64,000 bases of DNA from Oscillatoria sp. FACHB-1407 (GTDB lineage: Bacteria > Cyanobacteriota > Cyanobacteriia > Elainellales > Elainellaceae): positions 1 to 64,000 of the forward strand of contig NZ_JACJSA010000024.1 of assembly GCF_014697545.1 (NCBI RefSeq), in the 5' to 3' direction. A model generated the notes under the pieces. That model saw only the letters and a program-made list of their open reading frames with translations, had not been told where the DNA came from and did no database searches. Made by a program: the position numbers and the translations under genes. Within the stretch, counting starts at the first letter, position 1, and each line of letters starts with the position of its first letter. Shown here one piece after another: positions 12,625 through 29,724 of the stretch.

Positions 12625-13446
12625 CTACTCCCCACTGCTACTGACTTGAGTCATCGTTGAAGCCAACTCTCGATAGCGACGCGGATCCCCCTCTGCTAAG
12701 ACCAACCGCTCTTGTCCTTTGCGCTCGTAGAGTTTGTCGAGAATCATCTGCCAATCGGTTGCGGTGAGTGGCGACGGTTGGTCTGTGTGGTCCGATTGCG
12801 CCATTGGCTCAGTTTGCAGTTGTTGTTGTGCCAGAGAGGCACGAGCCCGCACCGCCCAACTGTCATCATTTGCAACCAGTTGCTCTAGTTGAGATTGAAT
12901 TTGCGATCGCCACTCTGGATAGGTCGTCCGCACCGCATTTGCCAGTGCCTCTAACCCAACTACGGCTGAATAGCGCACGATCCACTCGTCGTCCTGTTGC
13001 GCGACAAACAGCAATGCTTCCAGGGCTTCTTCCTGGGCAATTTCCAGCAATTCCTCTGGAAACCAGTGCCACTTCATCATGCCCAAACCCTTAGCCGCAG
13101 CACGCCGCACACTCAGCGCAAAGTCAGCGGTCGCAGCTCCCAACAAGGTCACCAATCCTCTCGGATCACCGATGCCAGCCAATGCCCGAATTGCCCACGC
13201 TCTGGCGGTGTAGTTGTGTAGATCCAGTTGCTCCAGCAGCGCAGGAACGGCAGGTTCGCCCAGATGAATCAGCCCATCTACCGCCGCGACAGCGGCTCCC
13301 GGATTGTTGTAACCCAGGGCAGCAATTAGCGTTGGAATGGCTCCTTCGTGCCGACTGGCTGCCAAATTTTGAACCGCTTCGGCGAGGCGACTGGAAGAAT
13401 CTGCTTTTTCGACCGCTTGAATCAGAGAGGAAAGTTGATCCGACAT
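12625..13446 (-). CDS. cpcF: Phycocyanobilin lyase subunit CpcF, with C-terminal extension
   Basis: CpcE and CpcF form the lyase that attaches phycocyanobilin to Cys84 of CpcA. This 273-residue protein consists of HEAT-like repeats (AIPTLIAALGYNNPGAAVAA, LGEPAVPALLEQLDLHNYTA, WAIRALAGIGDPRGLVTLLG), which place it in the E/F lyase family. It follows cpcE by 49 bp in cpcB-A-E-F order. Typical CpcF has about 200-220 residues. Here the last about 65 residues add a Pro/Gln/Ser linker and a segment containing DWQMILDKLYERKGQERLVL, then AEGDPRRYRELA. I do not recognise that segment. The ATG at 13446 is the natural start. Confidence 0.85.
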   Translation of the reverse strand: MSDQLSSLIQAVEKADSSSRLAEAVQNLAASRHEGAIPTLIAALGYNNPGAAVAAVDGLIHLGEPAVPALLEQLDLHNYTARAWAIRALAGIGDPRGLVTLLGAATADFALSVRRAAAKGLGMMKWHWFPEELLEIAQEEALEALLFVAQQDDEWIVRYSAVVGLEALANAVRTTYPEWRSQIQSQLEQLVANDDSWAVRARASLAQQQLQTEPMAQSDHTDQPSPLTATDWQMILDKLYERKGQERLVLAEGDPRRYRELASTMTQVSSSGE

Positions 13447-13494
13447 GGGGAGGAAGATCCGTCTGTTCTAACCCCTATATTTTCTCGTGTTTTG

Positions 13495-14316
13495 CTACAA
13501 CAAGTCATCCATCAGGGTCATAACTTTCACCGCTCCCTCTGAAAGTTCAGGCAATTGTGTTTGCTGAAGTTGCTTTTCCAGCAATCCCTTCAGAGAAATG
13601 AGTTTGAGGCTATTTTCTGCCAGAGTTTGAGCGATCGCCTCTGCGGCAGGCAAGTAACCAATCGCCCCCAAATCCGCCAGCACTGCCCGTCGTAGTTGCA
13701 GGTCTGGGTGGGTGAGAGCCTGCACTAAGCGATCGCCATAGTGATTTGCTTCAGCATGAGGCGAAAGCTGGTACATCGCTCGCGCCGCCGAATAACGAAT
13801 GCGGGGGATGGCGTGATCAAGAAATGGCAGGATATCGGCAATAGCATCCATCGCTCCCAACGTACCCAACGCTTCTAAAATGGCGTCAAAGGGTTGAGCC
13901 AGTTGGGGGGGTTCTGGCGCGGGCAACGTTCCGGGCACCTGATCCTTCAACAGTTCCACCAGTCGGGAAATAGCAGCCTTGTCGCCTAACATCTCTAGTG
14001 ACTGCGCTGCCGCCTCCCGGACGTAGAAATCAGAACAACTGAGCGACTCAATCAACGCTGGAATAGCACGGCGATCGCCCAACTTTCCCAGCGCTCGTGC
14101 CGCATTGCGCCGCAGGGGATAGCCGCCCGCTTTCGTGCGATCATCCTCATCATTCAGAGCCGCAATCAACACATCGATCGCCTCTGGGGCATCCACTCGA
14201 AATCGACCAAGCCACCATGCCGCGTAGATCCGTAACCCCAGGTCTTCACCTTGCAAATTGGCGATCGCCTGTTCCACAGTCAGGGAACTGCTCTGGATAT
14301 CTGATTCCTGATCCAT
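13495..14316 (-). CDS. cpcE: Phycocyanobilin lyase subunit CpcE
   Basis: This is the partner of CpcF in the heterodimeric lyase for the CpcA chromophore. The 273 residues contain several HEAT-type repeats (AIDVLIAALNDEDDRTKAGG; ARALGKLGDRRAIPALIESL; PRIRYSAARAMYQLSPHAEA). The protein begins MDQESD at 14316, followed by LRIYAAWWLGRFRVDAPEAI, which is characteristic of CpcE N-termini. A GTG three codons upstream (14325) is the alternative start. It lies downstream of cpcB-cpcA, separated by a hairpin at 14366-14418 that probably lowers expression of the lyase genes relative to the abundant antenna subunits. Confidence 0.93.
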   Translation of the reverse strand: MDQESDIQSSSLTVEQAIANLQGEDLGLRIYAAWWLGRFRVDAPEAIDVLIAALNDEDDRTKAGGYPLRRNAARALGKLGDRRAIPALIESLSCSDFYVREAAAQSLEMLGDKAAISRLVELLKDQVPGTLPAPEPPQLAQPFDAILEALGTLGAMDAIADILPFLDHAIPRIRYSAARAMYQLSPHAEANHYGDRLVQALTHPDLQLRRAVLADLGAIGYLPAAEAIAQTLAENSLKLISLKGLLEKQLQQTQLPELSEGAVKVMTLMDDLL

Positions 14317-14365
14317 ACACGTCACTCAACAAAAGCTCATCCTCTACTTTATAAAGAAAGCAATA

Positions 14366-14434: not shown

Positions 14435-14923
14435 CTAGCTCAATGCGTTGATGGCGTAGTCGATGTAGGAGTTTGCTTCAACAGCAGGGTCGCCGCTCAA
14501 GCCATGGTTTGCTTTGATGTACTTCAGAGCTTCCACGTACCAGCTAGGAGACAGGTCGAAGGTGCGGTTGATTTCAGCCAAACCACCGATCAGGTAGTCA
14601 TCCATGGGACCAGTGCCACCCACAACGAGGCAGTAGGTGATCATCCGCAAGTAGTAGCCGATGTCACGCACGCACTTGTCCTTACCACGCTGATCTGCCG
14701 CGAAGTTAGGTCCTTGCATTTGAGTGGTGTAAGGAAACTTTTGGTATACCGCATTAGCAGCACCTTGAGTCAAGCTAGAAGCCTTCTCAGTCAAAGCTTT
14801 TGCAGCTTGCAAGCTAGCACTGGCTTGACGAAAACGACCGAAAGCAACCTGGATCTCAGTAGAGCTGAGGAAACGTCCTTGAGAATCAGCAGCAGCTACA
14901 GCTTCGGTTAGAGGGGTTTTCAT
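14435..14923 (-). CDS. cpcA: Phycocyanin alpha subunit (cpcB-A-E-F copy)
   Basis: This 162-residue protein is a standard C-phycocyanin alpha subunit ([20 protein letters not shown]). The chromophore cysteine lies in [16 protein letters not shown] (about Cys84) and the conserved tail is [18 protein letters not shown]. The ATG at 14923 is preferred over a TTG six bases upstream. It follows a cpcB gene by 97 bp. The second alpha gene in this window (20733-21221) differs at scattered sites (for example [20 protein letters not shown] here against [20 protein letters not shown] there), so the two encode distinct isoforms. Confidence 0.97.
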
Positions 14924-15020
14924 TGTCAATAAATCTCCAAAATATTTTTGTTTTGTTCGTGAGTCTGGTAACTCCTTCCTGAGTCACCAGACTCAAATTA
15001 AAAAGAGGTCATGCGTAAGC

Positions 15021-15539
15021 TTATGCAACCGCAGCAGCAGCCTTATCGAAGTAGCTGCCCACTTCGCTCATCAAGCTAGCGCAGTCACCTTTGGTAACAC
15101 CATTGGGGTCGCCAGCGATCGCCAGAGCGGCATCCTTCATCTTCTGCACACCAACTGCTACGGAACCACCAGGAACACCCAGTGCCAGGTAGGTTTCGCG
15201 CAAACCGTTGAGGCAGCGATCTTCCAGAACGCTAGCATCACCCGCGAAGATAGCGTAGGTGATATAGCGCAGGATGATTTCCATGTCGCGCAAGCAAGCA
15301 GCCATGCGACGGTTGGTGTAAGCGTTTCCACCAGGTGCAATCAATCCAGGCTGTTCTTCAAACAATGCGCGAGCAGCATTCGCTACGATCGCAGAAGAGT
15401 TACCCGTAATCCGGTTAACAACATCCATGCGCTTGTTGCCGTCTGCAACCATTGCGCTCAAGGCATCCAGTTGAGAAGCACTGAGATAATCGCCCCGTGC
15501 ATCAGCCTGAGAAACCACTTTTGCAAATGCGTCGAACAT
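15021..15539 (-). CDS. cpcB: Phycocyanin beta subunit (cpcB-A-E-F copy)
   Basis: This 172-residue phycocyanin beta subunit begins [20 protein letters not shown]. It has the two chromophore cysteines, in [16 protein letters not shown] (about Cys82-84) and [14 protein letters not shown] (about Cys153-155). The asparagine-containing stretch [20 protein letters not shown] is also typical. It is the first gene of cpcB-A-E-F. Its leader is unusually long, about 800 bp to the upstream terminator. No L box is found in that leader, suggesting different light control from the cpcB at 21302. Confidence 0.97.
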
Positions 15540-16422: not shown

Positions 16423-17163
16423 TTAATGACGCAGAGCTACACTCAATTCCTGACGTTGGCTCGAAGACAGGTTGGCAACGATCGCCTTAGCAGTCGTTAC
16501 ATCACTGGTTTTGAGCAGTTCTAATAAGTCGTTAGTCGAGAGGCTTTGAATTTCCTTGGAGGTCGTCTTAGGTGCAGTATTCAGAACCTCATTGACTTCA
16601 GGATGACGACACACTCCATTAGTGCAAGTCCATCCCAATTGCCGCCAATACATGGTTGGAATAGAGTTGCCCCGCTGACCAATGTGCTCCTCGTTCAGGA
16701 ATTTTGACTCCAGGAAGGCTTCAGGCGATGGGTAGAAGTTATCCTTGCGAGGGTAGGGCACGGTAAAACAACCAAACGTCTTGCGATATTCTTCTGAATC
16801 CAAGATGGCTGTAATCAATCCATGCACCCCCTGCTTCGTCAGGATGGTGTTGTAGAACTTCATTTCCTGGTGGTCAGAAATGGCACGTCCCAAGAAGTGC
16901 TTGAAGCACACATCCATGAACTTGACATTGGAGAGGCTGTAATAAAACTGATTGAGGTAGATATCGGTGCAGGCAAATTGTTTTAGAAAGCGGCGCACAC
17001 CAATCTTATCTTTCAAGAAATCTTTTTCTAACGAAGCAATAGTTTTCCGTTCTGATTCGTAGGGCTGTCGTTCCAGAACTTGACGATAAATCTGCGTCAA
17101 GGCAAATTGCCGTTCTTCTAAAGAAGAGTGCCGGTTGACCGTCACGGGTGTAAAGTCGAGCAT
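16423..17163 (-). CDS. Phycobilisome linker with one PBS-linker domain (rod-core or ApcE-like)
   Basis: The 246-residue protein starts MLDFTPVTVNRHSSLEERQF at the ATG at 17163. It holds one PBS_linker_poly domain (about residues 15-165: IYRQVLERQPYESERKTIAS; FKHFLGRAISDHQEMKFYN; LDSEEYRKTFGCFTVPYPRK). A C-terminal extension follows with HIGQRGNSIPTMYWRQLGWT and a Cys pair (TCTNGVCRHPE). It lacks a CpcD-type tail, so it is not a normal rod linker. The domain wording is closest to the linker repeats of ApcE and CpcG-like rod-core linkers; the exact attachment site cannot be told from sequence. It lies between the two cpc operons and has its own terminator. Confidence 0.8.
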   Translation of the reverse strand: MLDFTPVTVNRHSSLEERQFALTQIYRQVLERQPYESERKTIASLEKDFLKDKIGVRRFLKQFACTDIYLNQFYYSLSNVKFMDVCFKHFLGRAISDHQEMKFYNTILTKQGVHGLITAILDSEEYRKTFGCFTVPYPRKDNFYPSPEAFLESKFLNEEHIGQRGNSIPTMYWRQLGWTCTNGVCRHPEVNEVLNTAPKTTSKEIQSLSTNDLLELLKTSDVTTAKAIVANLSSSQRQELSVALRH

Positions 17164-17403
17164 CAAAAGTTCCTCTAAGCTTAAGGTGGAGATCTATCTC
17201 ACCTGAGGACACCAGTCGGACATCGTAATCGCTGCCTCAGCGTGAGAAAAAGGTGGCGCACCCTCTTGGGGGAGATATCAATCCGTTAGGCTTATGGTCT
17301 CAGAATGCCCTTGGCTATCACAAAATGCGATCGCCAGCACAATTCTTTACACGGCAATTATTGGGGCAAATTGACTTTTGCCCCTGCCCTGAATCGGCAC
17401 TAA

Positions 17404-18228: not shown

Positions 18229-18477
18229 TTAACCTTCAGACGTTTCTTGAGCCGTCAGAGGACGAATGTTAACAATTTTGCCTCCCAAACGAGTGATGCG
18301 ACGCATCTCCTCATTCATACGGCGATAGGGAACTTGCAGTAGAATCGTGCTGCTATTCCGAACCGGGTAACTCTGATTTTGAGTTTGGTCGTTTTGCCGC
18401 AACCCTTCGACTTCATAGACAAAGATTCGATTGTCTGCACTGGAAACTGAGTTTCGCATCAAGGCGGACCCTAACAT
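18229..18477 (-). CDS. cpcD: Phycobilisome rod-capping linker CpcD
   Basis: CpcD (82 residues) caps the distal end of phycocyanin rods and limits their length. The sequence is a lone CpcD domain: NRIFVYEVEGLRQNDQTQNQ, then STILLQVPYRRMNEEMRRIT, then RLGGKIVNIRPL. The size is normal. It is the last gene of the operon cpcB-A-C-C-D, 339 bp after the second rod-linker gene and ahead of a strong terminator. This corresponds to cpcD2 in the Fremyella cpc2 operon. Confidence 0.93.
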   Translation of the reverse strand: MLGSALMRNSVSSADNRIFVYEVEGLRQNDQTQNQSYPVRNSSTILLQVPYRRMNEEMRRITRLGGKIVNIRPLTAQETSEG

Positions 18478-18816: not shown

Positions 18817-19689
18817 CTATTGTGCAAGGGTAATGCTGGCTACCTTACCACCCAATTTGTTGATTTGCTGGAGGGTATTGGAGAGTTGCTCGTAAGGAAC
18901 AATAAATTCCTTATTGCTGCGACGCACTTTGGGATAGCGAGGCAGGTTGATGCCTGCGACTTCAATCCGATAGAGGCGATCGCTTGACCCTTGAGAGGAG
19001 CGACCAAAGGTGCGAGTCGGTGCAGTGCCCTGCTTAGCGGGTTGGTATGCAAACCCTTCACCCCCACCAGAGGGAGCAACGATCGCCGATGCACTGTTTT
19101 TAGCCAAATCGGTTGCCAGACGAGAGTTCGATCCTGCTAGCTGAGCGCGATCGCTATTAGCATAACCGCGATAGAGGCGGAACATGCGGGTGAAGCCCAC
19201 GGTTCTCTGTCCTACGCCAGTGGTTACTAGATCGCGGTAGTAAGGCACGATCGCATCGCCAAATTTGACATCGTATTCTTCCGAGTCGATATAGGAATCG
19301 ATGTCTGCTTCAAAGCCTTCGTTTTGATAGCGATCGAGGTGTTCGATCACTTCTGCTTCGTCATAGGGTGCCCGTCCCAACAGGTGCTTGAAGTTGAGTT
19401 CAATCACACGAGTTTGGAAGTGGGGATAGAGAAACTTTTTCTTATAAAGCTCAGATTTAGCAACGGCCCGAACAAAGTCCCGCACGGTCAATTGACCATT
19501 GGTTAACAGAGACTCCAACCCGGTGAGACGCTCGGACTCCATCAAGTAGTCATTGCCTAAGACCTGGCGATAGACCGCTCGAATCACTTGCTTAGCATCT
19601 TCCGGAGTCCAATTGGCACGCAATTCAATCGGACGTGCTTCACTAAAAGCCGTGGTTCCCAGACGAGAGGCTGCGGTGGTAATTGGCAC
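18817..19689 (-). CDS. cpcC: Phycocyanin rod linker (CpcC type)
   Basis: This 290-residue rod linker joins phycocyanin hexamers. It has an N-terminal PBS_linker_poly domain (about 20-155: [60 protein letters not shown]). A Gly/Ser-rich linker follows, then a C-terminal CpcD domain (about 235-288: [40 protein letters not shown]). It lies 107 bp after a paralogue, as cpcH2 and cpcI2 do in Fremyella. The TGTGCAAGG near its stop codon is a single L-box-like half site and not a promoter element. Confidence 0.93.
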
Positions 19690-19796: not shown

Positions 19797-20612
19797 TCAG
19801 GCAGGAGAGACATTGACGACTCGACTGCCACGTTGATTCAACCGTTGCAGAGTCGGTGTTAGTTGGTCGTAAGCAACGAGATACTCCCGAACACTGCGTC
19901 TGATTTGAGGGGAATTGCCCTGGTTAGCTTGGGTGACACGCACGCGATACAGTTGTCCGCGATCGCCCCCCACTGTACCCACCAGACCCCGACCATTGGA
20001 GGGGGTTTGAATCGGGCTTGCCGCATTACGGGCTAACTCTTGGGTTAACCAGGCAGACTTGTTTTTCCCTTGAGCGCGATCGCTATTGGCATATCCCCGG
20101 TAAATCTGAAACATACGGCTGAAGCCTACTGTTTTTTGACCCCGTTGCGTGGCAAAGCCCCGGTAATAGGGAACAATGGCTTCTCCAAAATTTGTTTCAT
20201 ATTCTAGAGAATCAATATAGGAATTGATTTCTGCCTCGTAGCCCTGTTGGGTATAGAGATCGACGTGGAAGGCAATCTCTGATTCATCGTAAGGAGCACG
20301 TCCCAACAGATGTTTATAATTCAACTCAATAAAGCGGACTTGAGGTGTCGAGTAAAAAAACTTTTGTCGATATAACTCTGATTGTGCAAGAGTTCGGACA
20401 AACTCTCGAATAGTAATATCACCTCGACGCAAAAGCGACTCTGCACTGGTTAAGCGTTCGCTTTGCATCAGGTGATCATTACCAAACACTTGTCGATAAG
20501 CAGCACGAATGGCGGCTTGAACATCCCCTTCTGTCCAGTTGGTTCGCAGTTCTACAGGGGCAGTTCCTACAAATGGCTCAATCCCTAACTGTCTGGCTGC
20601 TACACTCGTCAT
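19797..20612 (-). CDS. cpcC: Phycocyanin rod linker, second paralogue
   Basis: A 271-residue rod linker paralogous to the next gene, with a PBS_linker_poly domain ([40 protein letters not shown]) and a C-terminal CpcD domain ([40 protein letters not shown]). The start is taken at [10 protein letters not shown] (20612), where family members begin. A longer frame to 20699 runs into the intercistronic hairpin. It is the first linker after cpcB-cpcA and probably binds the core-proximal rod disc, with the second linker further out (inference from gene order). Confidence 0.92.
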
Positions 20613-20655
20613 GACTTCTCCTCCATGTCGATGAAATTTCAACGAGAAAAAGCGT

Positions 20656-20719
20656 GCCCAGAACCCCAAAAACTGTCTATGCCGGAATCCAGCATTCACC
20701 AGCCTTCGTTGTTCTGGGC
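20656..20719 (-). terminator. Intercistronic hairpin after cpcA
   Basis: GCCCAGAAC (20656-20664) pairs with GTTCTGGGC (20711-20719). It lies 14 bp after the cpcA stop codon and probably stabilises the cpcBA transcript while reducing transcription into the linker genes, as in other cpc operons. Confidence 0.7.
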
Positions 20720-20732
20720 AAATCAGAAACCC

Positions 20733-21221
20733 TTAGCTCAGGGCGTTGATAGCGTAGTCGATGTAAGAGTTAGCTTCAACAGCAGGGTCACCACTCAAAC
20801 CGTGGTTTGCTTTGATGTACTTCAGAGCTTCAACGTACCAGCTAGGAGATAGGTCGAAGGTGCGGTTGATTTCAGCCAAGCCGCTGATCAGGTAGTCATC
20901 AATAGGACCAGTACCACCAGCGATTAAGCAGTAAGTGACCATACGGATGTAGTAGCCGATGTCACGTACACACTTGCTCTTACCACGAGAGTCAGAAGCG
21001 TAGTTAGCACCTTGCATCTGAGTGGTGTAGGGGAACTTTTGATAGACTGCGTTAGCTGCACCTTCAGCCAGGCTTTGAGCTTTGCTGCTCAATGCTTTTG
21101 CTGCATCCAAGCTAGCTGCGGCTTGACGGAAGCGACCGAAAGCAACTTGGAGTTCGGTGGAGCTGAGAAACCGTCCTTGAGAATCGGCGGTTGCGACGGC
21201 TTCTGTTAAAGGGGTTTTCAT
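20733..21221 (-). CDS. cpcA: Phycocyanin alpha subunit (cpcB-A-C-C-D copy)
   Basis: A 162-residue alpha subunit beginning [20 protein letters not shown], with the chromophore cysteine in [16 protein letters not shown] and the usual C-terminus. It differs from the other cpcA at several internal positions (for example [15 protein letters not shown] here against [15 protein letters not shown]). It follows its cpcB by 80 bp and is cotranscribed with two rod linkers and cpcD. The L box upstream of the operon suggests red-light-dependent expression. Confidence 0.97.
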
Positions 21222-21301: not shown

Positions 21302-21820
21302 TTAGCCCACAGCTGCCGCAGCTTGATCAAAGTAGCTGCTAACTTCAGCCATCAGGGAGCTGCAATCACCACGGGTAACACCATTGGGATCGTTAGCGAT
21401 CGCAATAGCGGCTTCTTTCATCTTTTGCACGCCAGTAGCAACGGAACCACCGGGAACGCCCAGTGCCAAGTAGGTTTCACGCAGACCATTGAGGCAGCGA
21501 TCGTTGAGAACGCTAGCGTCACCCGCGAAGATGGCATAGGTCACGTAACGCAGGATGATTTCCATGTCGCGCAAGCAAGCAGCCATGCGACGGTTGGTGT
21601 AAGCATTTCCGCCCGGTTGAATCAACTGGGGTTGCTCTTCGAACAATGCACGAGCTGCATTAGCAACGATTGTGGATGCGTTGCCAGTAATGCGGTTAAC
21701 AACATCCATGCGCTTGCTGCCATCAGATACGAGCTTTTTCAATGCATCGATTTCAGCATCGCTGACATAAGCACCACGGGTATCTGCTTGAGAGACTACT
21801 TTAGTAAAAGCGTCGAGCAT
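21302..21820 (-). CDS. cpcB: Phycocyanin beta subunit, first gene of the L-box operon
   Basis: This 172-residue beta subunit starts [20 protein letters not shown] at 21820; longer in-frame extensions up to 21895 do not match the family. Chromophore cysteines lie in [16 protein letters not shown] and [14 protein letters not shown]. It differs from the 15021-15539 copy in the N-terminal helices ([20 protein letters not shown] here). Its long leader (about 440 nt from the predicted start) and an upstream L box mark it as the counterpart of cpcB2 in Fremyella. Confidence 0.97.
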
Positions 21821-22264
21821 TCCAGCATCTCCTAATAATTTTGAGATTATTGAGTACACATGGTTCTCAAAGCGTGACTGAATTGATTTACTCACCGTTA
21901 AGTGACCACTTTGACAGGCTAAAGGAGCAGATCAATTCGCCTTTAGTCAGGTTGATAAACTTGACCAAAGTTTAGGAAGAACTCCCAGCGAACTATCTGA
22001 TTTCGATTAGTTATCAGTTAGTCAATCAATATTGTGAATACTCAAGACAGTCTTTCAAAATTCACAGTGCAGTCCAATCAAATCTGCTTTAGAAAATCTC
22101 AATTTTCAGAACAGATTTGCGATCGCCTTAAAGTTTTTTTACTATTCAAAGCGGTTTAGTCGGACTACTAAAACCAGTGAAATGGTATGCAATGAATTTT
22201 GAAAAAATTGAACCTTTGTTCATTAAAGAATCAATGGTTTCTGTGCTTTGTGAACTTGATTTTG

Positions 22265-22298
22265 ATTAAAGCAACCTTAATGTGCAAATTTTGTGCAA
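22265..22298 (-). promoter_or_regulatory. RcaC L box and -10 element of the cpc operon
   Basis: Reading the minus strand, TTGCACA (22298-22292), AAAT, TTGCACA (22287-22281) exactly fits the L box TTGCACA-N4-TTGCACA bound by RcaC in Fremyella diplosiphon upstream of its red-light genes. Ten bases downstream is TTTAAT (22270-22265), a fair -10 element. That is the spacing seen when an OmpR-type activator replaces the -35 box. No other perfect L box was found in the intergenic regions I checked. An RcaC-like gene lies 2 kb away. Confidence 0.88.
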
Positions 22299-22648
22299 AT
22301 TTGCAGCGGGAATCTGAATAGTAAGTTACGAAATATTAAAGGATGCCTCTATCCCAGGTACGATACATATTTCGGCGGCGTTACGTTCCTGGTTTTTACG
22401 GTAACAACTGTTAACAAGTGTTACTTTAGTTTACATTTGTTCAATTATAGTACGCTCAAATCACCCACGAGATGGATGATGCTTACAAATCGCTTGGACT
22501 GGCGATAGGCAGTGCTTATATAAATGAGTAACTATACCTAAAAGGCTTTAGTTTACTAATCAGGTTTAGAGCGTGAAATGCTGACTCATTTCAGTGACTC
22601 GCAACGGGTCAGTCAATCAGAATTGTTTCAATTCTTAAGGTTTATTTT

Positions 22649-22786
22649 ATGAGTTTGCCGCTCGAAAATTGGTATAGAGTGCTACACACAAAGCTAGAAA
22701 CAAGCACGTGGGGGCTGCATCCCGTCTTAACTTCTGAGAGTACTGCTACACAACAATTTGCAGACCAATTTGATTGTGGCGGCTGA
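22649..22786 (+). CDS. Possible 45-residue hypothetical protein
   Basis: From an ATG at 22649, preceded by TTAAGG at 22635-22640, the plus strand encodes 45 residues (MSLPLENWYRVLHTKLETST, then WGLHPVLTSESTATQQFADQ) to a TGA. The composition looks protein-like and there is a fair ribosome binding site. The region is otherwise repeat-rich and no family is recognised, so it may be spurious. Confidence 0.33.
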   Translation: MSLPLENWYRVLHTKLETSTWGLHPVLTSESTATQQFADQFDCGG

Positions 22787-22829
22787 AACCATCAAAATCC
22801 TGGTGTTTCTGATCCAATCTATGAATTTC

Positions 22830-22857
22830 GTAGGGGCGTTTCGCGAAACGCCCCTAC
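22830..22857. repeat. Dispersed palindrome with TTTCGCGAAA core
   Basis: A perfect 28-bp palindrome (arms GTAGGGGCGTTTCG) with flanking sequence shared with 3395-3487 (CAACGGTGATTAGT and GAGAATCAT...CAGCAACG). Other copies of the core are at 18035-18062 and 42913-42940. Confidence 0.85.
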
Positions 22858-22955
22858 AACGGTGATTAGTTTTTGAGAATCATATCGGCACTCAGCAACG
22901 TCAAAATCCTTATCCCGAATTCACCAGGCTCGACGCAGTTATAGCAACCCTAAAT

Positions 22956-23000
22956 GATTTGTGAAAGTGCCCGCCCGATGGGTGGGCACTTTCACAAATC
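22956..23000. repeat. Long hairpin, 21-bp stem
   Basis: GATTTGTGAAAGTGCCCGCC... pairs with ...GGCACTTTCACAAATC over 21 bp, with one mismatch and a 3-base loop. A partial second TTTCACAAATC follows at 23009-23019. It may be a small palindromic mobile element or act as a terminator for transcripts reaching this region. Confidence 0.75.
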
Positions 23001-23272
23001 ACCTTTTTCACAAATCAGATAGGACTGCTATATACCAATCAAATGGGGGGATGCATCAAATCAGATACCCCCTTATAGCCCCCCTTGGTAAGGACGACAA
23101 CAGCCAGGGGTTCAATAAAACACATCTTCATATAAAAACGGTATTAGATACCCCAAACCCTCTAAAAAAGGAGATTTCCAGAATTTCCTTCTTTTCAAGG
23201 CTACGGTAGCAACACAAGTCTTCACAGCCCCCTACATCCCCAAAAATGGATTCATGTTCTTCAGAGGTTGGT

Positions 23273-24007
23273 TCAAACCGTTACGTAATCAAACAACATG
23301 GTTGTCATATAACGCTCAGTCCACTCTGTACCAAAAGACTTTTCCAGGACTCGTCGCGTCTTGTCATTTTGTTGTTGTTTGGTGCAATAGTTTTGTTGCC
23401 CGACAAGCACATTTTTGATATCGGGCTGTGCTGTCAGCGGTGTTTCCGTTGTCGCGATTTGACAATGAAGTATCAGGAACTGACGCACTCGATTGAGAAA
23501 CTGATCTTCCTCTTCAGTGTTCATCGGACGGATAAACAAACAAAATTCTGAGAAGATGTCGCCCCATTCCGGCAGAGCACGGGGCTGAGAAAAGTGTGGT
23601 TTGGGTAACTCGGATAACCCTTGGTGATAGCGATGGGGCAGGGTGCGATCGCGGCTGATAGGAGATAGATCGGCGATCGCCGCACTAATTCCTCCTCGCT
23701 GACTGCCAACCAAATCAGTCCCAAAGATAGGGATGGCGTATTCGGGCTTGGGAAACATGACACAGTGTAAGATATCAAGCCCATTACCCACCTGAGCCAG
23801 TTCTAAATGCAACTTGCGAAATTGGGGAGTTTGATAACAGTGGTTTTCGATCGTTAACCGTTCGCCTTCAAGACTGCCTTCGATATATCCCAGGTCTTCT
23901 GGTACGACATAGGGTGAGAGATCCAGATATTGGTGCCAAACCTCTTCGATACAATCCGCCAGTCGGTGAATCAGAGGATGTTGGTTATTTCTTATTGACC
24001 CTTGCAT
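23273..24007 (-). CDS. pcyA: Phycocyanobilin:ferredoxin oxidoreductase
   Basis: PcyA reduces biliverdin IXalpha by four electrons, with ferredoxin, to phycocyanobilin, the chromophore attached to the phycocyanins encoded nearby. The 244-residue sequence has all core motifs: CYQTPQFRKLHLELAQVGNG, LDILHCVMFPKPEYAIPIFG, ISAAIADLSP, FSQPRALPEWGDIFSEFCLF and KQQQNDKTRRVLEKSFGTEW. The catalytic residues are Glu69, His81 and Asp98, each shifted by seven from Glu76/His88/Asp105 of the Synechocystis enzyme (numbers recalled). It lies between the RcaC-like gene and the cpc operon. In Fremyella pcyA is also under RcaC control, but I see no L box directly upstream here. Confidence 0.96.
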   Translation of the reverse strand: MQGSIRNNQHPLIHRLADCIEEVWHQYLDLSPYVVPEDLGYIEGSLEGERLTIENHCYQTPQFRKLHLELAQVGNGLDILHCVMFPKPEYAIPIFGTDLVGSQRGGISAAIADLSPISRDRTLPHRYHQGLSELPKPHFSQPRALPEWGDIFSEFCLFIRPMNTEEEDQFLNRVRQFLILHCQIATTETPLTAQPDIKNVLVGQQNYCTKQQQNDKTRRVLEKSFGTEWTERYMTTMLFDYVTV

Positions 24008-24286
24008 GGTGATAAATAGCTTTGATGAAGTGATTTGATGGAGTGATTTATAGGTGCTTCTAACTTCCCTGGACTTGGAGACTTTAAAGTTCGGAAGCCT
24101 TCAGATTTAGGGGTTTGAAAATTATAGCCTTGGTCAGAAAGCTTAAGACAAAGGCAATGACTCAACCCCGGATGCTGGGCAAGCTTCCTGACTCACCTCC
24201 GCTCCATCGAATGTGGCTACGGCTATAAAACAGAGAATGGGGTTATCAGTTCACACTCTGATTTGTCTCTGGTTTGTCAGTGAGCC

Positions 24287-26272
24287 TCAACCTGCCCAGG
24301 CTTTAACCCGTTGTAAGCGGCTTAGAATTCGATTTGCCAGTTCGCCTCCCATCAACGGCTTACACAGATAGTCATCGGCACCAGCAGCAAACGCTTGTTG
24401 CTGATGGGTTGAGTCGGTTAAGACACTTAGAAATAATACAGGTAATCGTTGCCAGTGGGGGTCATTGCGAATCATCTGACACAGTTCAAACCCATTGATC
24501 TCTGGCAGGTTGACATCTAAAACCAGTACATCTGGCACAACCGCTTGTAAGACCGTCCAGAATTGTTGTGGATCGGCAAGGGTTGTGACCTTAAACCCCC
24601 AGGGTTTCAACAACGTTGGTAGGGTGCGTAACCAATGCTGATCGTCGTCAACAATCATGACCTTGGGAGCTAACTTCGATCGCCTCATTAAGTTGACCGC
24701 AGCGGTCATCGCTTGCTCTGGTGACGTTGAGTGGTCTAAAAAGAGTTTGCCTCCACGTCGCGCCACCTCCAGACGATCGCCAGTCCTTAGGCGATCGCCC
24801 ATCACCACAATTGGCACCGTTGGATATCGCTGAGTGCAAGGTTGCACATACTGCAAGAACGGATGGGGTTGAGACACCTCACCGATCTCACTGGGCTTGG
24901 TTAAATGGTCAGGCAGACGCAACAGGAGCAGATCGGGCGGTTGTCCCGCGACATCGATCGCCATTTCTAAAGCTGTCAACGTGCTATCCAGTTCTAGCGG
25001 AGACACGATCTCGACCTGGATGCCGCGACTGCTGGCGATCGCCCCCATTGCCTGGTTAAAGGCATCTTCTGCGCTAACAAGTAGAAGCAGCGGCGAGTGT
25101 CCTTGGGGCACTTGGGATAATTGAATTTGAGTTGCAGATTGAATCACCTGCTGCAACTCAACCATGAGATGATGCATCAGAGGTGCCTGGTTTGGGTGCA
25201 GCGCATCCTGGCTGCCCAGCCAGTGTTCGAGTTGACGAGCCAGATGGACTGCCTTGTGCAAACCAAAGATGCTCAATGTTCCTGCCAGTTTGTGTGCCAG
25301 TTGTTGAGCCTGAGCTTGATGATGGGGAGCAAGGCGATCGGCATGGAGGGCTTGAATCGCTTCAAACAGAGCTTTGACCTGTTCCAGGCTGGTGGGTTTG
25401 GTTGTGCTCCAAACGTCATTGAGAAATGCCACGTATTGCTGTTGGGCATCGGCTGAGTAGGGATCAACCAGAGGAGCCGTGTCCTCTGTCGCTGAAGAAT
25501 CTGTTCCTAGCTGCGAGGAAGATGCCCAGTTGGAGTCAGGGTGGGGCGATCGCGAAGATGGCTCCGTTGCCGCAGGAGATGAAGCCGAGGCATCAGGTTG
25601 AATCGCCTTGAGGTAATAACCCCGCCCATGCATGGTGGCGATGAAATCATGGGGCGCACCGACTGCCACTAACTTGTTGCGAACTCGTCGAATGTGCGAT
25701 CGCACCGTTGCCTCCGAAGGAAACGCCTCCGACGACCACAGGTGATCCAAAATCTCCTCCGTGCTAAACACATGCTGGCTATCCCGCAACATCAGCTCTA
25801 GCAGTTCATATTCTTTGGTTGTCAGAGCCAGCGGTTGCCCCTTGTAAGTCACCTCACACGTACTGGGATTCAAAATCAAATCGCCCCAGGTCAGCAACGG
25901 AAAGGGATTGTTACTCCCCCGTCGCAACAACGCCCGAATCCGAGCGGTTAACTCAGTTTGGTCACAGGTTTTCACCACATAGTCATCAGCACCCGCATCC
26001 AACCCCTGCACCTTAGCGGTATTAGTATCCTGCGCCGTGAGCAACATAATTGGGGTTGCGTAGCCCTCCGTCCGAAATCGTTTGCACAAACTGATGCCAT
26101 CTACTTTGGGCAATACGACATCCATCAGCATCAAGTCATATTCAAAGGTGGAGCCATACGTCCAACCCATCTCGCCATCCTTGACGCTGTCAACGATATA
26201 TTGCTGAGCTTTCAACATTCTGGTGAGCACTTTAATGAAAGCATCATCATCTTCAATCAGCAAAATTTTCAT
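24287..26272 (-). CDS. rcaC: RcaC-like response regulator (receiver-DNA binding-HPt-receiver)
   Basis: The 661-residue protein from MKILLIEDDDAF (26272) has four modules. An N-terminal receiver has Asp51 in YDLMLMDVVLPK. An OmpR-type winged helix follows (about 125-222: LTTKEYELLELMLRDSQHVF; ATVRSHIRRVRNKLVAVGAP; IATMHGRGYYLK). Next is a Pro/Ser linker and an HPt domain with His327 in QLAHKLAGTLSIFG. A C-terminal receiver has Asp586 in DVLVLDVNLPEINGFE. This is the architecture and approximate length of RcaC, the type III chromatic acclimation regulator that binds the L box; Asp51 is also its known phosphorylation site. It starts 8 bp after the rcaF-like stop codon in a three-gene operon. The adjacent L box and pcyA support the assignment. 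Confidence 0.9.
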   Translation of the reverse strand: MKILLIEDDDAFIKVLTRMLKAQQYIVDSVKDGEMGWTYGSTFEYDLMLMDVVLPKVDGISLCKRFRTEGYATPIMLLTAQDTNTAKVQGLDAGADDYVVKTCDQTELTARIRALLRRGSNNPFPLLTWGDLILNPSTCEVTYKGQPLALTTKEYELLELMLRDSQHVFSTEEILDHLWSSEAFPSEATVRSHIRRVRNKLVAVGAPHDFIATMHGRGYYLKAIQPDASASSPAATEPSSRSPHPDSNWASSSQLGTDSSATEDTAPLVDPYSADAQQQYVAFLNDVWSTTKPTSLEQVKALFEAIQALHADRLAPHHQAQAQQLAHKLAGTLSIFGLHKAVHLARQLEHWLGSQDALHPNQAPLMHHLMVELQQVIQSATQIQLSQVPQGHSPLLLLVSAEDAFNQAMGAIASSRGIQVEIVSPLELDSTLTALEMAIDVAGQPPDLLLLRLPDHLTKPSEIGEVSQPHPFLQYVQPCTQRYPTVPIVVMGDRLRTGDRLEVARRGGKLFLDHSTSPEQAMTAAVNLMRRSKLAPKVMIVDDDQHWLRTLPTLLKPWGFKVTTLADPQQFWTVLQAVVPDVLVLDVNLPEINGFELCQMIRNDPHWQRLPVLFLSVLTDSTHQQQAFAAGADDYLCKPLMGGELANRILSRLQRVKAWAG

Positions 26273-26279
26273 CGCTCGG

Positions 26280-26651
26280 CTACCACTGGAGAATTCGGGC
26301 AATTTGCTCAGAGAGATGCAGCGAATTAAAGGGCTTGGTAATCACGCCCCTCACGCCTCTGGCGTGATCAGAGTGCCCTGTGAGTTGTGCCTTAGCCGTT
26401 AACAAAATCACGGGAATGTGTGCCGTGGCATCGTCAGATTGGAGGGTCTTCAAAGCTGTCATACCACTCATATCAGGCATCACTACATCTAACAAAATTA
26501 CATCGGGTTGCTCTTGTTGAGCCAGTTGAATTCCCTGCCTGCCCGATGTGGCAACCAACACCTGCCAACCTGCCGTCATTCTGATACCAAACTGCACCAC
26601 CGTTTGAATCGTTTCCTCATCATCAATAATCAGGATGCGTTTATTAGACAT
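26280..26651 (-). CDS. rcaF: RcaF-like single-domain response regulator
   Basis: A 123-residue lone receiver domain (KRILIIDDEETIQTVVQFGI; Asp55 in PDVILLDVVMPDMSGM; Lys in GVITKPFNSLHL) without output domain. Size and position match RcaF, which relays phosphate between the sensor kinase and the HPt or receivers of RcaC. The ATG at 26651 overlaps the kinase stop codon (TGATG), so the genes are translationally coupled. RcaF identity rests on context, because single receivers are hard to tell apart by sequence. Confidence 0.8.
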   Translation of the reverse strand: MSNKRILIIDDEETIQTVVQFGIRMTAGWQVLVATSGRQGIQLAQQEQPDVILLDVVMPDMSGMTALKTLQSDDATAHIPVILLTAKAQLTGHSDHARGVRGVITKPFNSLHLSEQIARILQW

Positions 26652-28027
26652 CAATCCTGCTCCGATTTGGGATTGGCTTGCGCCAAAGGCAAGGTAAGGG
26701 CAAAGGTACTGCCATTGCCGGGAGTGCTCTCAGCCCAGATTCTGCCGTTGTGTTGCTCTACAATCTTGCGACAAATGGCAAGCCCTAAGCCTGTTCCACC
26801 TCGTCTGTGGGAGTCAGCCGGATCGACCTGTTGAAACCAGTCAAAGATGCGTTCCAATTGATTGGCGGGAATGCCCTGTCCCTGGTCGCGAACCTGGAAG
26901 AGGGCTGACAGGAGGTGTGGGGTGTGGGTAACGGTCAGCCAGACCTTTCCACCAACAGGGGAAAATTTGATGGCGTTACTGAGCAGGTTCGTGAGGGCTT
27001 GCAAAATGTAATCGGCATCCGCCCACACGGCAATGGCTTCAGGTTGGGTGATGAGGGTAATGCCGTGCTGTTGTGCCATCGGTTGCATCACCAGAGCAGC
27101 CTGGGTGATTAGATCAGCGGCGTTGCATTCCCGGTAGTTCATCACAACGTTGCCAGATTCCATACGTTGCAGATCGAGGACATGGTTGACCAACCGCATG
27201 AGCCGTTCGGTACTTTCATCGGCGATCGCCAACATCTGGTGTCCCTCGCTGGAGAGATTGCCCAAACGCCCTGTCCCCAGAATCTTGAGAGCACTGTGCA
27301 GTGAGGTCAGTGATGTCCGCACATCGTGACTCATCACAGCGATCAACTCATCCTTGGTCTGGCGATCGCGTTGTTCCTGCTGCAATGCGGCTTGTAAGTG
27401 TTCCACATATTGCGCTTGCGAGAGTGCAAGGCTGATTTGAGCCGCCAGTTTTTGCAGGAGTTCCAACTCAACCTCAACCCACGATCGCACACTCTGACAC
27501 TGATGAGCGATTAATAATCCCCACAGTTGGGGCAACAAAAGGCTATCTTGAGCCTGATTGTTTAGCGTTTGCACGATTGGCACCACAAGCTTGGCTTTGA
27601 TGCCAAACTGATCGACAAACTTCACCAAACACTCGGCTAACCCCGATGCGGGGTGATGCACATCGGCGATCGCCTGCACTCGTCCCTGAGCGTAAAGCTG
27701 CTGATAGTCAGCCGGAAACACCTCTTCAGCAAACTCTTGATGGATCAGTGGCGGATATTCCGGCGACACAGACTCGTCCACAATTTTGCCCCTGCCGTCG
27801 GGTAAAACGTGGTAAATCAGAACGCGATCGGCTTGCAGAATCCGTTGCACCTCAGTCACGGTCGTGTGCAGGATATCCTTCAGGTACAGCGATTGGTGAA
27901 GCTTGAGGGCAACATCCGAAAACAACTCCACTTCCGATTGTTGTTGGCGCAACTCAGTCGGTGTTGCATTCTGCTGTTGATCATCGCGATCGCCAGGTGA
28001 AGATTGTTGGGAAGACCGCTCTACCAC
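26651..28027 (-). CDS. GAF-domain histidine kinase in the rcaF-rcaC operon (RcaE-position kinase)
   Basis: The 458-residue protein has a GAF domain (about 45-208: LHTTVTEVQRILQADRVLIY; LVVPIVQ; LWGLLIAHQC), a HisKA domain with His234 in VMSHDVRTSLTSLHSALKIL, and an ATPase domain (NLLSNAIKFSP; VRDQGQGIPANQLERIF; GGTGLGLAICRKIVEQHNG). The GAF resembles cyanobacteriochrome GAFs. Cys133 lies at the usual bilin-cysteine position 16 residues before VVPI's V. However, there is no PAS domain and the protein is about 200 residues shorter than Fremyella RcaE (about 655). Val152 stands where, by ungapped count, RcaE is recalled to have its protochromic Glu. Translation appears to start at the GTG at 28027, the first start codon after an in-frame TGA. 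It could be an RcaE variant or another sensor feeding the pathway. Confidence 0.85.
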   Translation of the reverse strand: MVERSSQQSSPGDRDDQQQNATPTELRQQQSEVELFSDVALKLHQSLYLKDILHTTVTEVQRILQADRVLIYHVLPDGRGKIVDESVSPEYPPLIHQEFAEEVFPADYQQLYAQGRVQAIADVHHPASGLAECLVKFVDQFGIKAKLVVPIVQTLNNQAQDSLLLPQLWGLLIAHQCQSVRSWVEVELELLQKLAAQISLALSQAQYVEHLQAALQQEQRDRQTKDELIAVMSHDVRTSLTSLHSALKILGTGRLGNLSSEGHQMLAIADESTERLMRLVNHVLDLQRMESGNVVMNYRECNAADLITQAALVMQPMAQQHGITLITQPEAIAVWADADYILQALTNLLSNAIKFSPVGGKVWLTVTHTPHLLSALFQVRDQGQGIPANQLERIFDWFQQVDPADSHRRGGTGLGLAICRKIVEQHNGRIWAESTPGNGSTFALTLPLAQANPKSEQD

Positions 28028-28419
28028 AAACTCAAACCGCCATCCAAAAGAACATCTTCAATTGTTTACGAAACACCCTTAAAACTTCAAATTGAAAAAA
28101 ACCAATGTTGTAAATCTTTATAGGAAAGGACAGCCGTGTGCCAGTTGATTCAGTACAGCGGGGGTGTATCTGACGGTTAGGGGAGTGGCGGTTGAAACCG
28201 CAGCTACCAGAACAAAACCTGCCTACACTGGTTCAAAACCTCAGTCCGCGTCGGCGGACTCCGCTCCAATCGCCGCGAATTCATTCGCTGGGTTCAGTTC
28301 TCCAATCACTAGACACACCCTACAGCGGGTACCGTCCTGTTGAACGAGTGAATTACAACTGCGTGAAATACTAGAACATTCGTATTAAATTCATATGTAT
28401 TAGTTCATTGGCTCCCCCT
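28028..28419. repeat. Divergent spacer with a dispersed repeat
   Basis: Bases about 28183-28303 are a copy of the repeat also at 16042, 17831 and 58840 (GGCGGTTGAAACCGCAGCTA ... GTCGGCGGACTCCGCTCC ... CGCGAATTCATTCGCTGGG). Promoters of the kinase operon and nurA must lie in this stretch; no L box is seen. Confidence 0.7.
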
Positions 28420-29724
28420 ATGCTCGATCTGACCAAACTTGCCCGCCAAATGCAAGGCATCAGCCAACACCTGAGCCAGGAAGCGATCGCCAGTCGGCAG
28501 CGATTAGAATTAGCCGAGCGGCTTTTGCGCCAAGCCAGCGATCGCCAAGCCGATCTGGTCACCCTGCAACACACCTGGCGCGATCGTCTGGGATTCACCG
28601 CAGCGGAGCCTGTCGAGCCGTTAGATACTCGTGTGGCAATTTCCGCTGCACCCAATCTACATACCGTTTTAGCAACCGATGGCTCACAAATTGCCCCCAG
28701 TCATCACGAAATTGCCTACTGTTATCTGATTAACGTGGGGCGAGTAGCATTGCACTATGGGCAAAACCGCCATCCCCTGCTGGATAGCCTGCCAGAGGTG
28801 TTTTACCGTCCTGAAGACCTGTACCAATCGCGGCAGTGGGGCATTCGCACAGAGGAGTGGATGGGCTATTGCCGCACGGTGTCTGAAGCGACGGCATTGG
28901 CAGAGTTGGCGGAAGAGAAGAATGGCGGGGACGCGATTAATCAAAATGGCGGGGACGCGATTAATCAAAATGGCGGGGACGCGATTAATCAAAATGGCGG
29001 GGACGCGATTAATCAAAATGGCGGGGACGCGATTAATCGCGTCCCCGCATTGAGGGAACAACCCACATTGGCGATGGTAGATGGGTCGCTGATTCACTGG
29101 TTTTTAGAGCCATTGCCTCTGGAAGCCCGCGATCGCATCCTTCCCCCAATTCTGGAGGCATGGCAACGGTTGCAACGGTTGCGCATTCCATTGGTGGGCT
29201 ATCTCAGCGCGGCTCGTAGCGGGGAGTCGCTAAACTTTTTAAGACTTCAGACCTGTCCCTATGAGGCTCCCGATTGCCAGAGCCACTGCCCCGGTCAGAC
29301 CGAACAGGCTCCCTGTCAGGTGTTTGCCCCCTTACGCGATACGGCATTGTGGTCGCTAGTGCTGGAACCCGGACAGCGAGGGGCATTGTGGCGCAGTTCT
29401 GCCAAGATTTTGGAGTGGTATGGCGACCAAACAATTTACTTTTGCTATGTGAATGTGGGAGCAGAGATTGCACGAGTTGAGTTTCCGGCATGGGTCGCTG
29501 AGGATGCTGATCTGCTTGAAACCGCCCTTAGTCTCACCCTGACTCAAGTGCAAAAGGGTTATGGCTATCCCGTAGCGTTAGCAGAGGCGCACAATCAAGC
29601 CGTTGTCCGAGGGGGCGATCGCGCTCGGTTTTTTGCGCTCCTCGAACGAGAAATGATCCGGGCTGGGTTGCAAAACATCGGTACGTCTTACAAAGAAGCC
29701 CGCAAGCGAGGAAGCATTGCATAA
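28420..29724 (+). CDS. nurA: NurA-domain nuclease with an in-frame repeat insertion
   Basis: The 434-residue protein from the ATG at 28420 is a NurA-type nuclease. NurA enzymes resect DNA ends in double-strand-break repair, usually with the HerA helicase. The conserved acidic motifs are visible in HTVLATDGSQIAPSHHEIAY and LAMVDGSLIHWFLEPL, and near the C-terminus AEAHNQAVV and FALLEREM. Between them, residues 168-207 are five units of NGGDAIN(Q/R) encoded by an inserted 24-bp DNA repeat. The insertion keeps the frame, so the protein is likely made with a low-complexity loop. Family members without this loop are correspondingly shorter. No herA gene is near. Confidence 0.85.
   Translation: MLDLTKLARQMQGISQHLSQEAIASRQRLELAERLLRQASDRQADLVTLQHTWRDRLGFTAAEPVEPLDTRVAISAAPNLHTVLATDGSQIAPSHHEIAYCYLINVGRVALHYGQNRHPLLDSLPEVFYRPEDLYQSRQWGIRTEEWMGYCRTVSEATALAELAEEKNGGDAINQNGGDAINQNGGDAINQNGGDAINQNGGDAINRVPALREQPTLAMVDGSLIHWFLEPLPLEARDRILPPILEAWQRLQRLRIPLVGYLSAARSGESLNFLRLQTCPYEAPDCQSHCPGQTEQAPCQVFAPLRDTALWSLVLEPGQRGALWRSSAKILEWYGDQTIYFCYVNVGAEIARVEFPAWVAEDADLLETALSLTLTQVQKGYGYPVALAEAHNQAVVRGGDRARFFALLEREMIRAGLQNIGTSYKEARKRGSIA
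28921..29052. repeat. 24-bp tandem repeat ending in a palindrome, inside nurA
   Basis: Four identical 24-bp units (each AATGGCGGGGACGCG followed by ATTAATCAA) at 28921-29016 precede a fifth copy. The fifth completes the palindrome GGGGACGCGATTAATCGCGTCCCC (29022-29045) and ends at about 29052. It looks like a small palindromic element that inserted in frame, after which its left half was expanded by slippage. Confidence 0.92.

Follow-up and report, generated by a model that had tools for sequence, protein, structure and literature searches.

What is left for a red/green light relay to control in a genome without phycoerythrin (PE)? Relays of the RcaE type normally swap red and blue antenna pigments. 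The question is raised by a stretch of 64,000 nucleotides from Oscillatoria sp. FACHB-1407 (contig NZ_JACJSA010000024.1, positions 1 to 64,000; hereafter the window), in which a sensor kinase gene, rcaF and rcaC lie next to pcyA and a phycocyanin operon (cpc2) preceded by an L box. The cluster is a real, well-conserved system in reduced form, in which only the cpc2 arm of the known relay is left, and we consider it likely that it acts as a PE-free, red-light-induced RcaEFC switch for phycocyanin only. Its main parts are:

26651..28027, minus strand: rcaE-type sensor kinase, 458 amino acids, with GAF, HisKA and HATPase domains and without PAS (Pfam)
27422..27883, minus strand: GAF domain of the kinase, residues 49-202, with Cys133, Leu134, Glu102 and Lys146
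26280..26651, minus strand: rcaF, single REC domain (Pfam), likely phospho-acceptor Asp56, numbered from the TTG at 26654 (open reading frame 26280-26654)
24287..26272, minus strand: rcaC, REC - OmpR-type DNA-binding - HPt - REC, with Asp51, His327 and Asp586 (Pfam, tree)
23273..24007, minus strand: pcyA, bilin reductase (Pfam; NCBIfam PcyA, 354 bits, cut-off 206)
22281..22298, minus strand: exact L box, TTGCACAAAATTTGCACA, predicted RcaC site in direct orientation to cpc2
22265..22273, minus strand: extended -10-like motif, TGCTTTAAT, 7 nucleotides after the L box
21302..21820, minus strand: cpcB2, 172 amino acids from the ATG at 21820 (NCBIfam TIGR01339, 317.7, cut-off 279.3)
20733..21221, minus strand: cpcA2 (NCBIfam TIGR01338, 307.7, cut-off 269.45)

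The original prediction, made from the sequence alone, had described a four-domain, RcaC-like regulator with Asp51, His327 in the HPt domain and Asp586, and had placed it in one tight operon with an RcaF-like receiver and a GAF kinase, directly upstream of pcyA and an L-box cpc operon. All of this holds: Pfam finds the four domains, the receiver and the GAF kinase, the three residues are in place, the kinase stop overlaps the rcaF start (TGATG), rcaC starts 7 nucleotides past the rcaF stop, PcyA scores above its NCBIfam cut-off, and the L box at 22298-22281 is exact. A place outside the RcaC clade would have spoken against the regulator at 24287-26272; in a 60-row tree, which did not include the named Fremyella RcaC, it falls inside a 50-row RcaC clade with a support of 100 (Shimodaira-Hasegawa-like approximate likelihood ratio test, SH-aLRT), apart from ten RcaC-like paralogs. 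The relatives were drawn from 388 genomes of the class, 93 of which gave an RcaC match at E 1e-110; 49 were taken as RcaC orthologs, with a full-length identity of at least 54%, or at least about 50% over a shorter RcaC or fragment. These 49 also include G183, G010 and G093 (45-48%), all three of which lie inside the clade; G156 and G233, the latter with an RcaC split across two frames, were left out of the tree. With the window and 51 loci around RcaC-ortholog genes, 52 loci were read.

Two observations belong beside the regulator. Twenty of the 50 RcaC rows (L077, L079-L084, L086-L095, L098-L100; 17 from family f24) are only about 507-535 amino acids long and match the window RcaC over REC, OmpR and HPt alone; their second receiver seems to be missing. 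A further three short rows are truncated where their contigs end. Furthermore, contig C3 of this genome carries a paralogous set (C3:442654; L101 9907-15189, equal to C3:442606-447888), in which an RcaC-like regulator, a PAS kinase and a small RcaF-like receiver stand close together as in the window, the kinase part of its 818-amino-acid frame being 52% identical to the window kinase. In contrast to the window, its regulator (42% identical to the window RcaC) belongs to a separate tree clade, and L101 has no L box within two mismatches.

For the kinase, the GAF domain is 72% identical over 187 amino acids to PDB 8k9o; in the aligned stretch, this sequence looks no different from that of 7ckv, which is named RcaE. 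On a tree of 35 RcaE rows and two outgroup kinases, it stands among the RcaE rows (support of the split from the outgroup 88), and the smallest starred set around it holds nine of them. Cys133, which we take to be the chromophore cysteine, and Glu102, Leu134 and Lys146, presumably the colour-tuning protochromic triad of RcaE, are invariant in 22 aligned RcaE; the kinase has the Cys-Leu pair and the presumed Glu and Lys of a green/red GAF domain. A Leu after the Cys is given for RcaE and CcaS in PMC9415938. His234 is present, the catalytic motifs are kept, and no in-frame start codon lies farther upstream before a stop. The assignment as an RcaE-RcaF-RcaC relay beside an L-box cpc2 operon is supported.

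The second half of the question concerns the missing pigment. A CpeB model search of the whole genome gave nothing over cut-off, in keeping with the earlier remark that no PE gene is visible, and the bilin reductase family has a single member, PcyA; both results fit the suggested control of phycocyanin only. A CpcB1 query (E 1e-40) led to two genes, cpcB1 and cpcB2, with products 83% identical, and the 15 matches to the Phycobilisome family are accounted for by the four Cpc genes, by ApcE with two matches, by five genes of allophycocyanin type and by four weak matches; types other than Cpc were assigned by eye. The genome is 100% complete in 66 contigs, and PE is lacking from the genome as a whole, not from the window alone. 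Since the PE half is missing, the system is by definition not chromatic acclimation type 3 (CA3): cpc2 does have its L box in direct orientation, but reciprocal control of PE and phycocyanin is lacking, with no CpeB over cut-off and no second bilin reductase. The pec operon of CA7 is not found either, as the only two CpcB-like genes at E 1e-40 are CpcB2, over the CpcB cut-off, and CpcB1.

The CcaS-CcaR systems (CA1, CA2, CA7) resemble the window relay in placing a green/red bilin GAF kinase over antenna genes, and CA1 is also known from a phycocyanin-only strain (PMC12461855). However, they use another regulator and another DNA site; here we find RcaF, RcaC and an L box, and no G-box-like site within three mismatches in the window or within four around cpcL (L041). 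This cpcL on contig C1 (L041 5236-6000) encodes a CpcL-type linker with a hydrophobic C-terminus, and by eye no sensor gene was recognised near it in 11 kb, no search for CcaS by name having been made.

RcaC genomes without PE are also found elsewhere. CpeB exceeds the cut-off in 34 of the 49 and is absent in 15. Seven of the latter form a strict PE-less set, at least 95% complete and with one bilin reductase (this genome, G000, with G224, G237, G015, G204, G138 and G276), the reductase being PcyA-like in the six whose reductase locus was read, namely all but G276. The remaining eight are more ambiguous. In G173, a fragment of a broken reductase lies next to a cpcB; two reductases are present in G185 and in G219, three in G239, four in G270 and none in G023, which does have RcaE and cpc2; and G254 and G279 are only 78% and 72% complete. 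Extra CpcB-like genes at 71-76% identity, with no class assigned, occur in G015 (two) and in G138, G224 and G270 (one each); the CpcB1 query found none in G000, G237 and G204, and in G276 only one full CpcB-like gene (72%), a second being cut by a contig end. On the RcaE tree, the PE label (12 rows without, 23 with PE) needs seven changes, at least six by starred branches. As judged from gene content, RcaE without PE is a real and recurrent state in near-complete genomes.

This differs from the picture in the literature. In Wang and Chen (2022; PMC9415938), 27 of 65 genomes have RcaE and all of these are able to make phycoerythrobilin; rcaE without PE in cryoconite metagenome-assembled genomes was suggested to reflect incompleteness (PMC8941735), and RcaEFC is assigned to CA3 with control of both PE and phycocyanin (PMC12461855). 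No report of a PE-less RcaEFC system was found in the accessible text of the open-access literature naming RcaE, RcaC or the L box, a scope outside which subscription papers such as Hirose 2019 lie. RcaE has been read as a marker of PE-changing strains, and the near-complete genomes described here show it without PE.

Which genes, then, does the relay reach? An exact L box was found in 35/49 genomes with an RcaC ortholog versus 26/339 others (Fisher p 3.5e-22), some of the 26 possibly holding RcaC versions below threshold, and this enrichment is not due to chance. As a control, the reversed pattern is absent from this genome and occurs in 3/388 genomes versus 61/388 for the L box. Within the RcaC genomes, the exact L box is present in 23 of 34 with PE and in 12 of 15 without. 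The window and the relatives' loci together hold 58 L boxes with at most one mismatch, of which 34 have the motif TGNTT[T/A]AAT exactly 7 nucleotides downstream and none has it at another distance in the 24 nucleotides scanned. These 34 comprise every L box that precedes a cpcB-type gene (32 in all), together with those of a rod-linker gene in L063 and of cpeBA in L065, whereas most of the 24 without the motif lie before pcyA or face PE linker genes. The composite of L box and -10 motif precedes a cpc operon in all seven strictly PE-less RcaC genomes, each at least 95% complete (window, L066, L187, L188, L189 and L190, with L098 and L191 for G276, where a contig end truncates one copy and the second cpcB shares only 72% identity with CpcB1). 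Elsewhere in this genome, six further L-box-like sites (no or one mismatch) all lack the -10 motif, and because the composite promoter is found only before cpc2, the relay looks single-targeted. By these motif patterns, it appears to drive one blue-antenna operon through one conserved promoter.

Other candidate targets were rejected. A site with three TTGCACA (C16:59579-59607) is probably an accident: it consists of an 11-bp tandem repeat next to another short repeat, lacks a correctly placed -10 motif and is oriented in reverse to the neighbouring REC-GGDEF gene. Upstream of this gene (L001 1490-1625), two short tandem repeats adjoin, one of which reads as a triple L box. The four one-mismatch sites of this genome, all without the -10 motif, were discarded as well. 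For pcyA there is no L box within three mismatches in this genome, and for cpcB1A1, the second phycocyanin operon, none within two, with one three-mismatch site at the operon start. Across the relatives, pcyA has an L box in 17 of 26 PE-containing genomes versus 1 of 8 PE-less ones (p 0.014), which becomes 2 of 9 (p 0.0498) once G015 is added, whose exact pcyA L box was missed at first; a joint loss of this L box and PE is a weak proposal, since PE-containing genomes such as G129 also lack it. In L065 (11012-12820; G122), rcaEFC and a pcyA interrupted by an in-frame stop are followed by cpeBA where cpc2 would otherwise stand; the one-mismatch L box of cpeBA, with a cpc2-type -10 motif at 7 nucleotides, would predict red-light-activated PE.

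The gene order itself was a point in which the original prediction went astray, as it had regarded the clustering of regulator, pcyA and cpc as special. The order rcaC-pcyA-L box-cpcB2 recurs in 20 of the 52 loci, several of which are cut by contig ends, and spans six families (f1, f7, f11, f16, f24, f32), which rules out an unusual arrangement; L053, one of the 20, belongs to a genome in which the RcaE GAF shares 92% identity with PDB 8k9o. Less strictly, a cpcB follows rcaC within 9 kb downstream on the same strand in 24 of the 52, several others again being truncated at the end of their contig.

In the known relay, red light acts through RcaE, RcaF and RcaC, the L box activating cpc2 and pcyA, and pebAB is repressed via a reverse L box (PMC8256508). 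The window shares with the CA3 relay of Fremyella diplosiphon and Synechococcus PCC 7335 the three proteins, the layout of phospho-acceptors and the L box before cpc2, and pcyA lies beside rcaEFC as in many relatives. Unlike CA3, the genome has neither PE nor pebAB to repress, its pcyA has no L box, one target promoter is recognisable, and its RcaE has no inner PAS. Taking light polarity, phosphate flow and activation from the known system, red light would turn the GAF photosensor of the shortened RcaE into a net kinase, and phosphate would pass from RcaE via RcaF to Asp51 of RcaC. Bound to the single L box, phosphorylated RcaC would act together with the extended -10 motif 7 nucleotides behind it to turn on cpcB2A2 and the rod linkers. 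In green light, this operon would fall back and rods would be built from cpcB1A1. The output would be the amount of phycocyanin rods, with no swap of PE for phycocyanin, and pcyA, the only bilin reductase, would stand outside the circuit. We infer that the sensor PAS was lost after or during the loss of PE and that the sensor evolves fast; since it is PAS-less and fast-evolving, its set-point may have shifted. Linker changes can invert such kinases (PMC11164954), which makes an altered switch possible. Such a locus offers natural tests of what a colour switch does with the red-absorbing antenna alone, and of the changes that a photoreceptor kinase undergoes once its inner PAS is deleted.

Pfam finds no PAS between GAF and HisKA of the window kinase, an absence that the original prediction had passed over. 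This typical trait of RcaE is also absent in G224, G190 and G138, and since these three are members of the group, we regard it as typical, not defining; G190 has PE and another PAS at its N-terminus. Presence or absence of the PAS was assessed with Pfam in 9 of the 35 RcaE rows and judged from alignment and linker length in the others. From GAF to the His, 24 of 31 PAS-bearing rows have 169 residues (four others 148-168, three not measured), whereas the PAS-less rows have 26 (window), 47 (G224), 51 (G190) and 44 (G138, by hand count). A single clade of the four is rejected by an approximately unbiased (AU) test (p 5.6e-05), G138 being a long branch and the group having been chosen after the sequences were seen. 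As, in addition, the residual linker pieces differ, the PAS was probably lost more than once among RcaE. PAS-less kinases make up 3 of the 7 strictly PE-less versus 1 of 23 PE-containing rows (p 0.03), or 3 of all 12 PE-less rows (p 0.11); because the rows are not independent of descent, we do not claim that PAS loss is tied to PE loss. A search of 242 genomes for a congener matched this genome itself, G224 and G138 and no congener, at a threshold that misses PAS-bearing RcaE, probably through a split match.

Several findings speak against an intact switch. Of the 192 columns that are conserved in 95% of the other rows, 22 are changed in the window kinase (median of 34 RcaE, 0.9%), a private-change count that sparse sampling near a row inflates. 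The changes include E235D, L236V and P239S in the H box, which reads HDVRTSL versus HELRTPL in ten other rows compared, and R397W. RcaF is changed at 3 of 51 columns (median 0), and a generic sigma-70 scan gave nothing at the L box and one promoter elsewhere in 2.7 kb, where 5.7 were expected. Going by these substitutions, a kinase without PAS and with 22 changes may be impaired, re-tuned or inverted.

A rival reading is a decaying relic, in which the sensor has been under relaxed selection since the loss of PE and no longer switches, RcaC is held on or off or fed by another kinase, and cpc2 is without colour regulation; we regard this as unlikely, though worth weighing. The acceleration is specific to the kinase, since RcaC (2/162), PcyA (0/112) and CpcB2 (0/101) hardly change and RcaF lies between. 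The ratio of RcaE to RcaC end branches, which sparse sampling likewise inflates, exceeds 1.0 in three PE-less genomes only (window 1.42, G237 1.67, G138 1.46), and it differs between the seven strictly PE-less and 22 PE-containing genomes (Mann-Whitney p 0.014); taken singly, the RcaE branches differ (p 0.002) and the RcaC branches do not (p 0.28). Neither group of this comparison includes G173 (0.45), G239 (0.95) or G185, in which both branches are zero; G219, G023, G254, G279 and G270 were not entered, nor were PE-containing genomes without one of the two rows. The G237 kinase, which kept its PAS, is changed at 22 of 238 conserved columns. The loss of the PAS and the paralogous set on C3 would fit a relic as well. 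However, frame and operon, chromophore cysteine, presumed triad, phospho-acceptors, exact L box and -10 motif are all intact, and the kinases of G224, G015, G204 and G276, four of the seven strictly PE-less genomes, stay within the PE-containing ratio range of 0.22-1.0.

Less probable again is a working relay whose signal is light intensity, or green light in place of red, the loss of the PAS having shifted the coiled-coil register between GAF and kinase. The linkers of the window (26) and G224 (47) are equal modulo 7, those of G190 (51) and G138 (44) share another register, and linker changes can invert the red response in engineered photoreceptor kinases (PMC11164954). Nevertheless, there are only four natural cases, and the inverted variants in PMC11164954 span several registers, so that register alone does not predict polarity. 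An ordinary CA3 system with PE genes missed in the 66-contig draft is very improbable, as it would require cpeBA, pebA and pebB to be absent together from an assembly of completeness 100, and the PE-less state recurs in six other genomes.

Beyond the PE-free phycocyanin switch proposed for this genome, we offer with considerable reserve the generalisation that phycocyanin-only RcaEFC is a recurrent type outside CA1-CA7, which would have arisen by repeated loss of PE, with a single L-box promoter (cpc2) and a sensor rebuilt in several lineages, in some by a PAS excision that shifted set-point or polarity.

On the minus strand, the order of the locus is kinase, rcaF, rcaC, pcyA, L box, cpcB2, cpcA2, two linkers with CpcD domain, cpcD, a single-domain linker and cpcB1A1. 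The features downstream of cpcA2 are:

19797..20699, minus strand: rod linker with CpcD domain (Pfam), start probably near 20612 by eye
18817..19689, minus strand: second rod linker with CpcD domain (Pfam)
18229..18477, minus strand: cpcD, rod-capping linker (NCBIfam NF058509, 118.9, cut-off 80)
14435..15539, minus strand: cpcB1A1, second phycocyanin operon, presumed constitutive
12625..14325, minus strand: two HEAT-repeat-like proteins behind cpcB1A1, which we take to be the lyases cpcE and cpcF by position and sequence character

The single-domain phycobilisome linker between cpc2 and cpc1 (16423-17166, minus strand), without CpcD domain, is about 29-37% identical to the linker repeats of this genome's ApcE and to CpcL, CpcG and the rod linkers, and its best PDB match is CpcN; homologs occupy the same slot in G015 (L189, 75%) and lie near cpc2 in G006 (L058, 67%). 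Between pcyA and the L box (22955-23001), an inverted repeat with a 20-pair stem and a T-rich tail is terminator-like or a mobile repeat. Upstream of the kinase, an open reading frame on the plus strand (28408-29724) has five near-identical units of eight residues (NGGDAINQ) in the middle of its protein.

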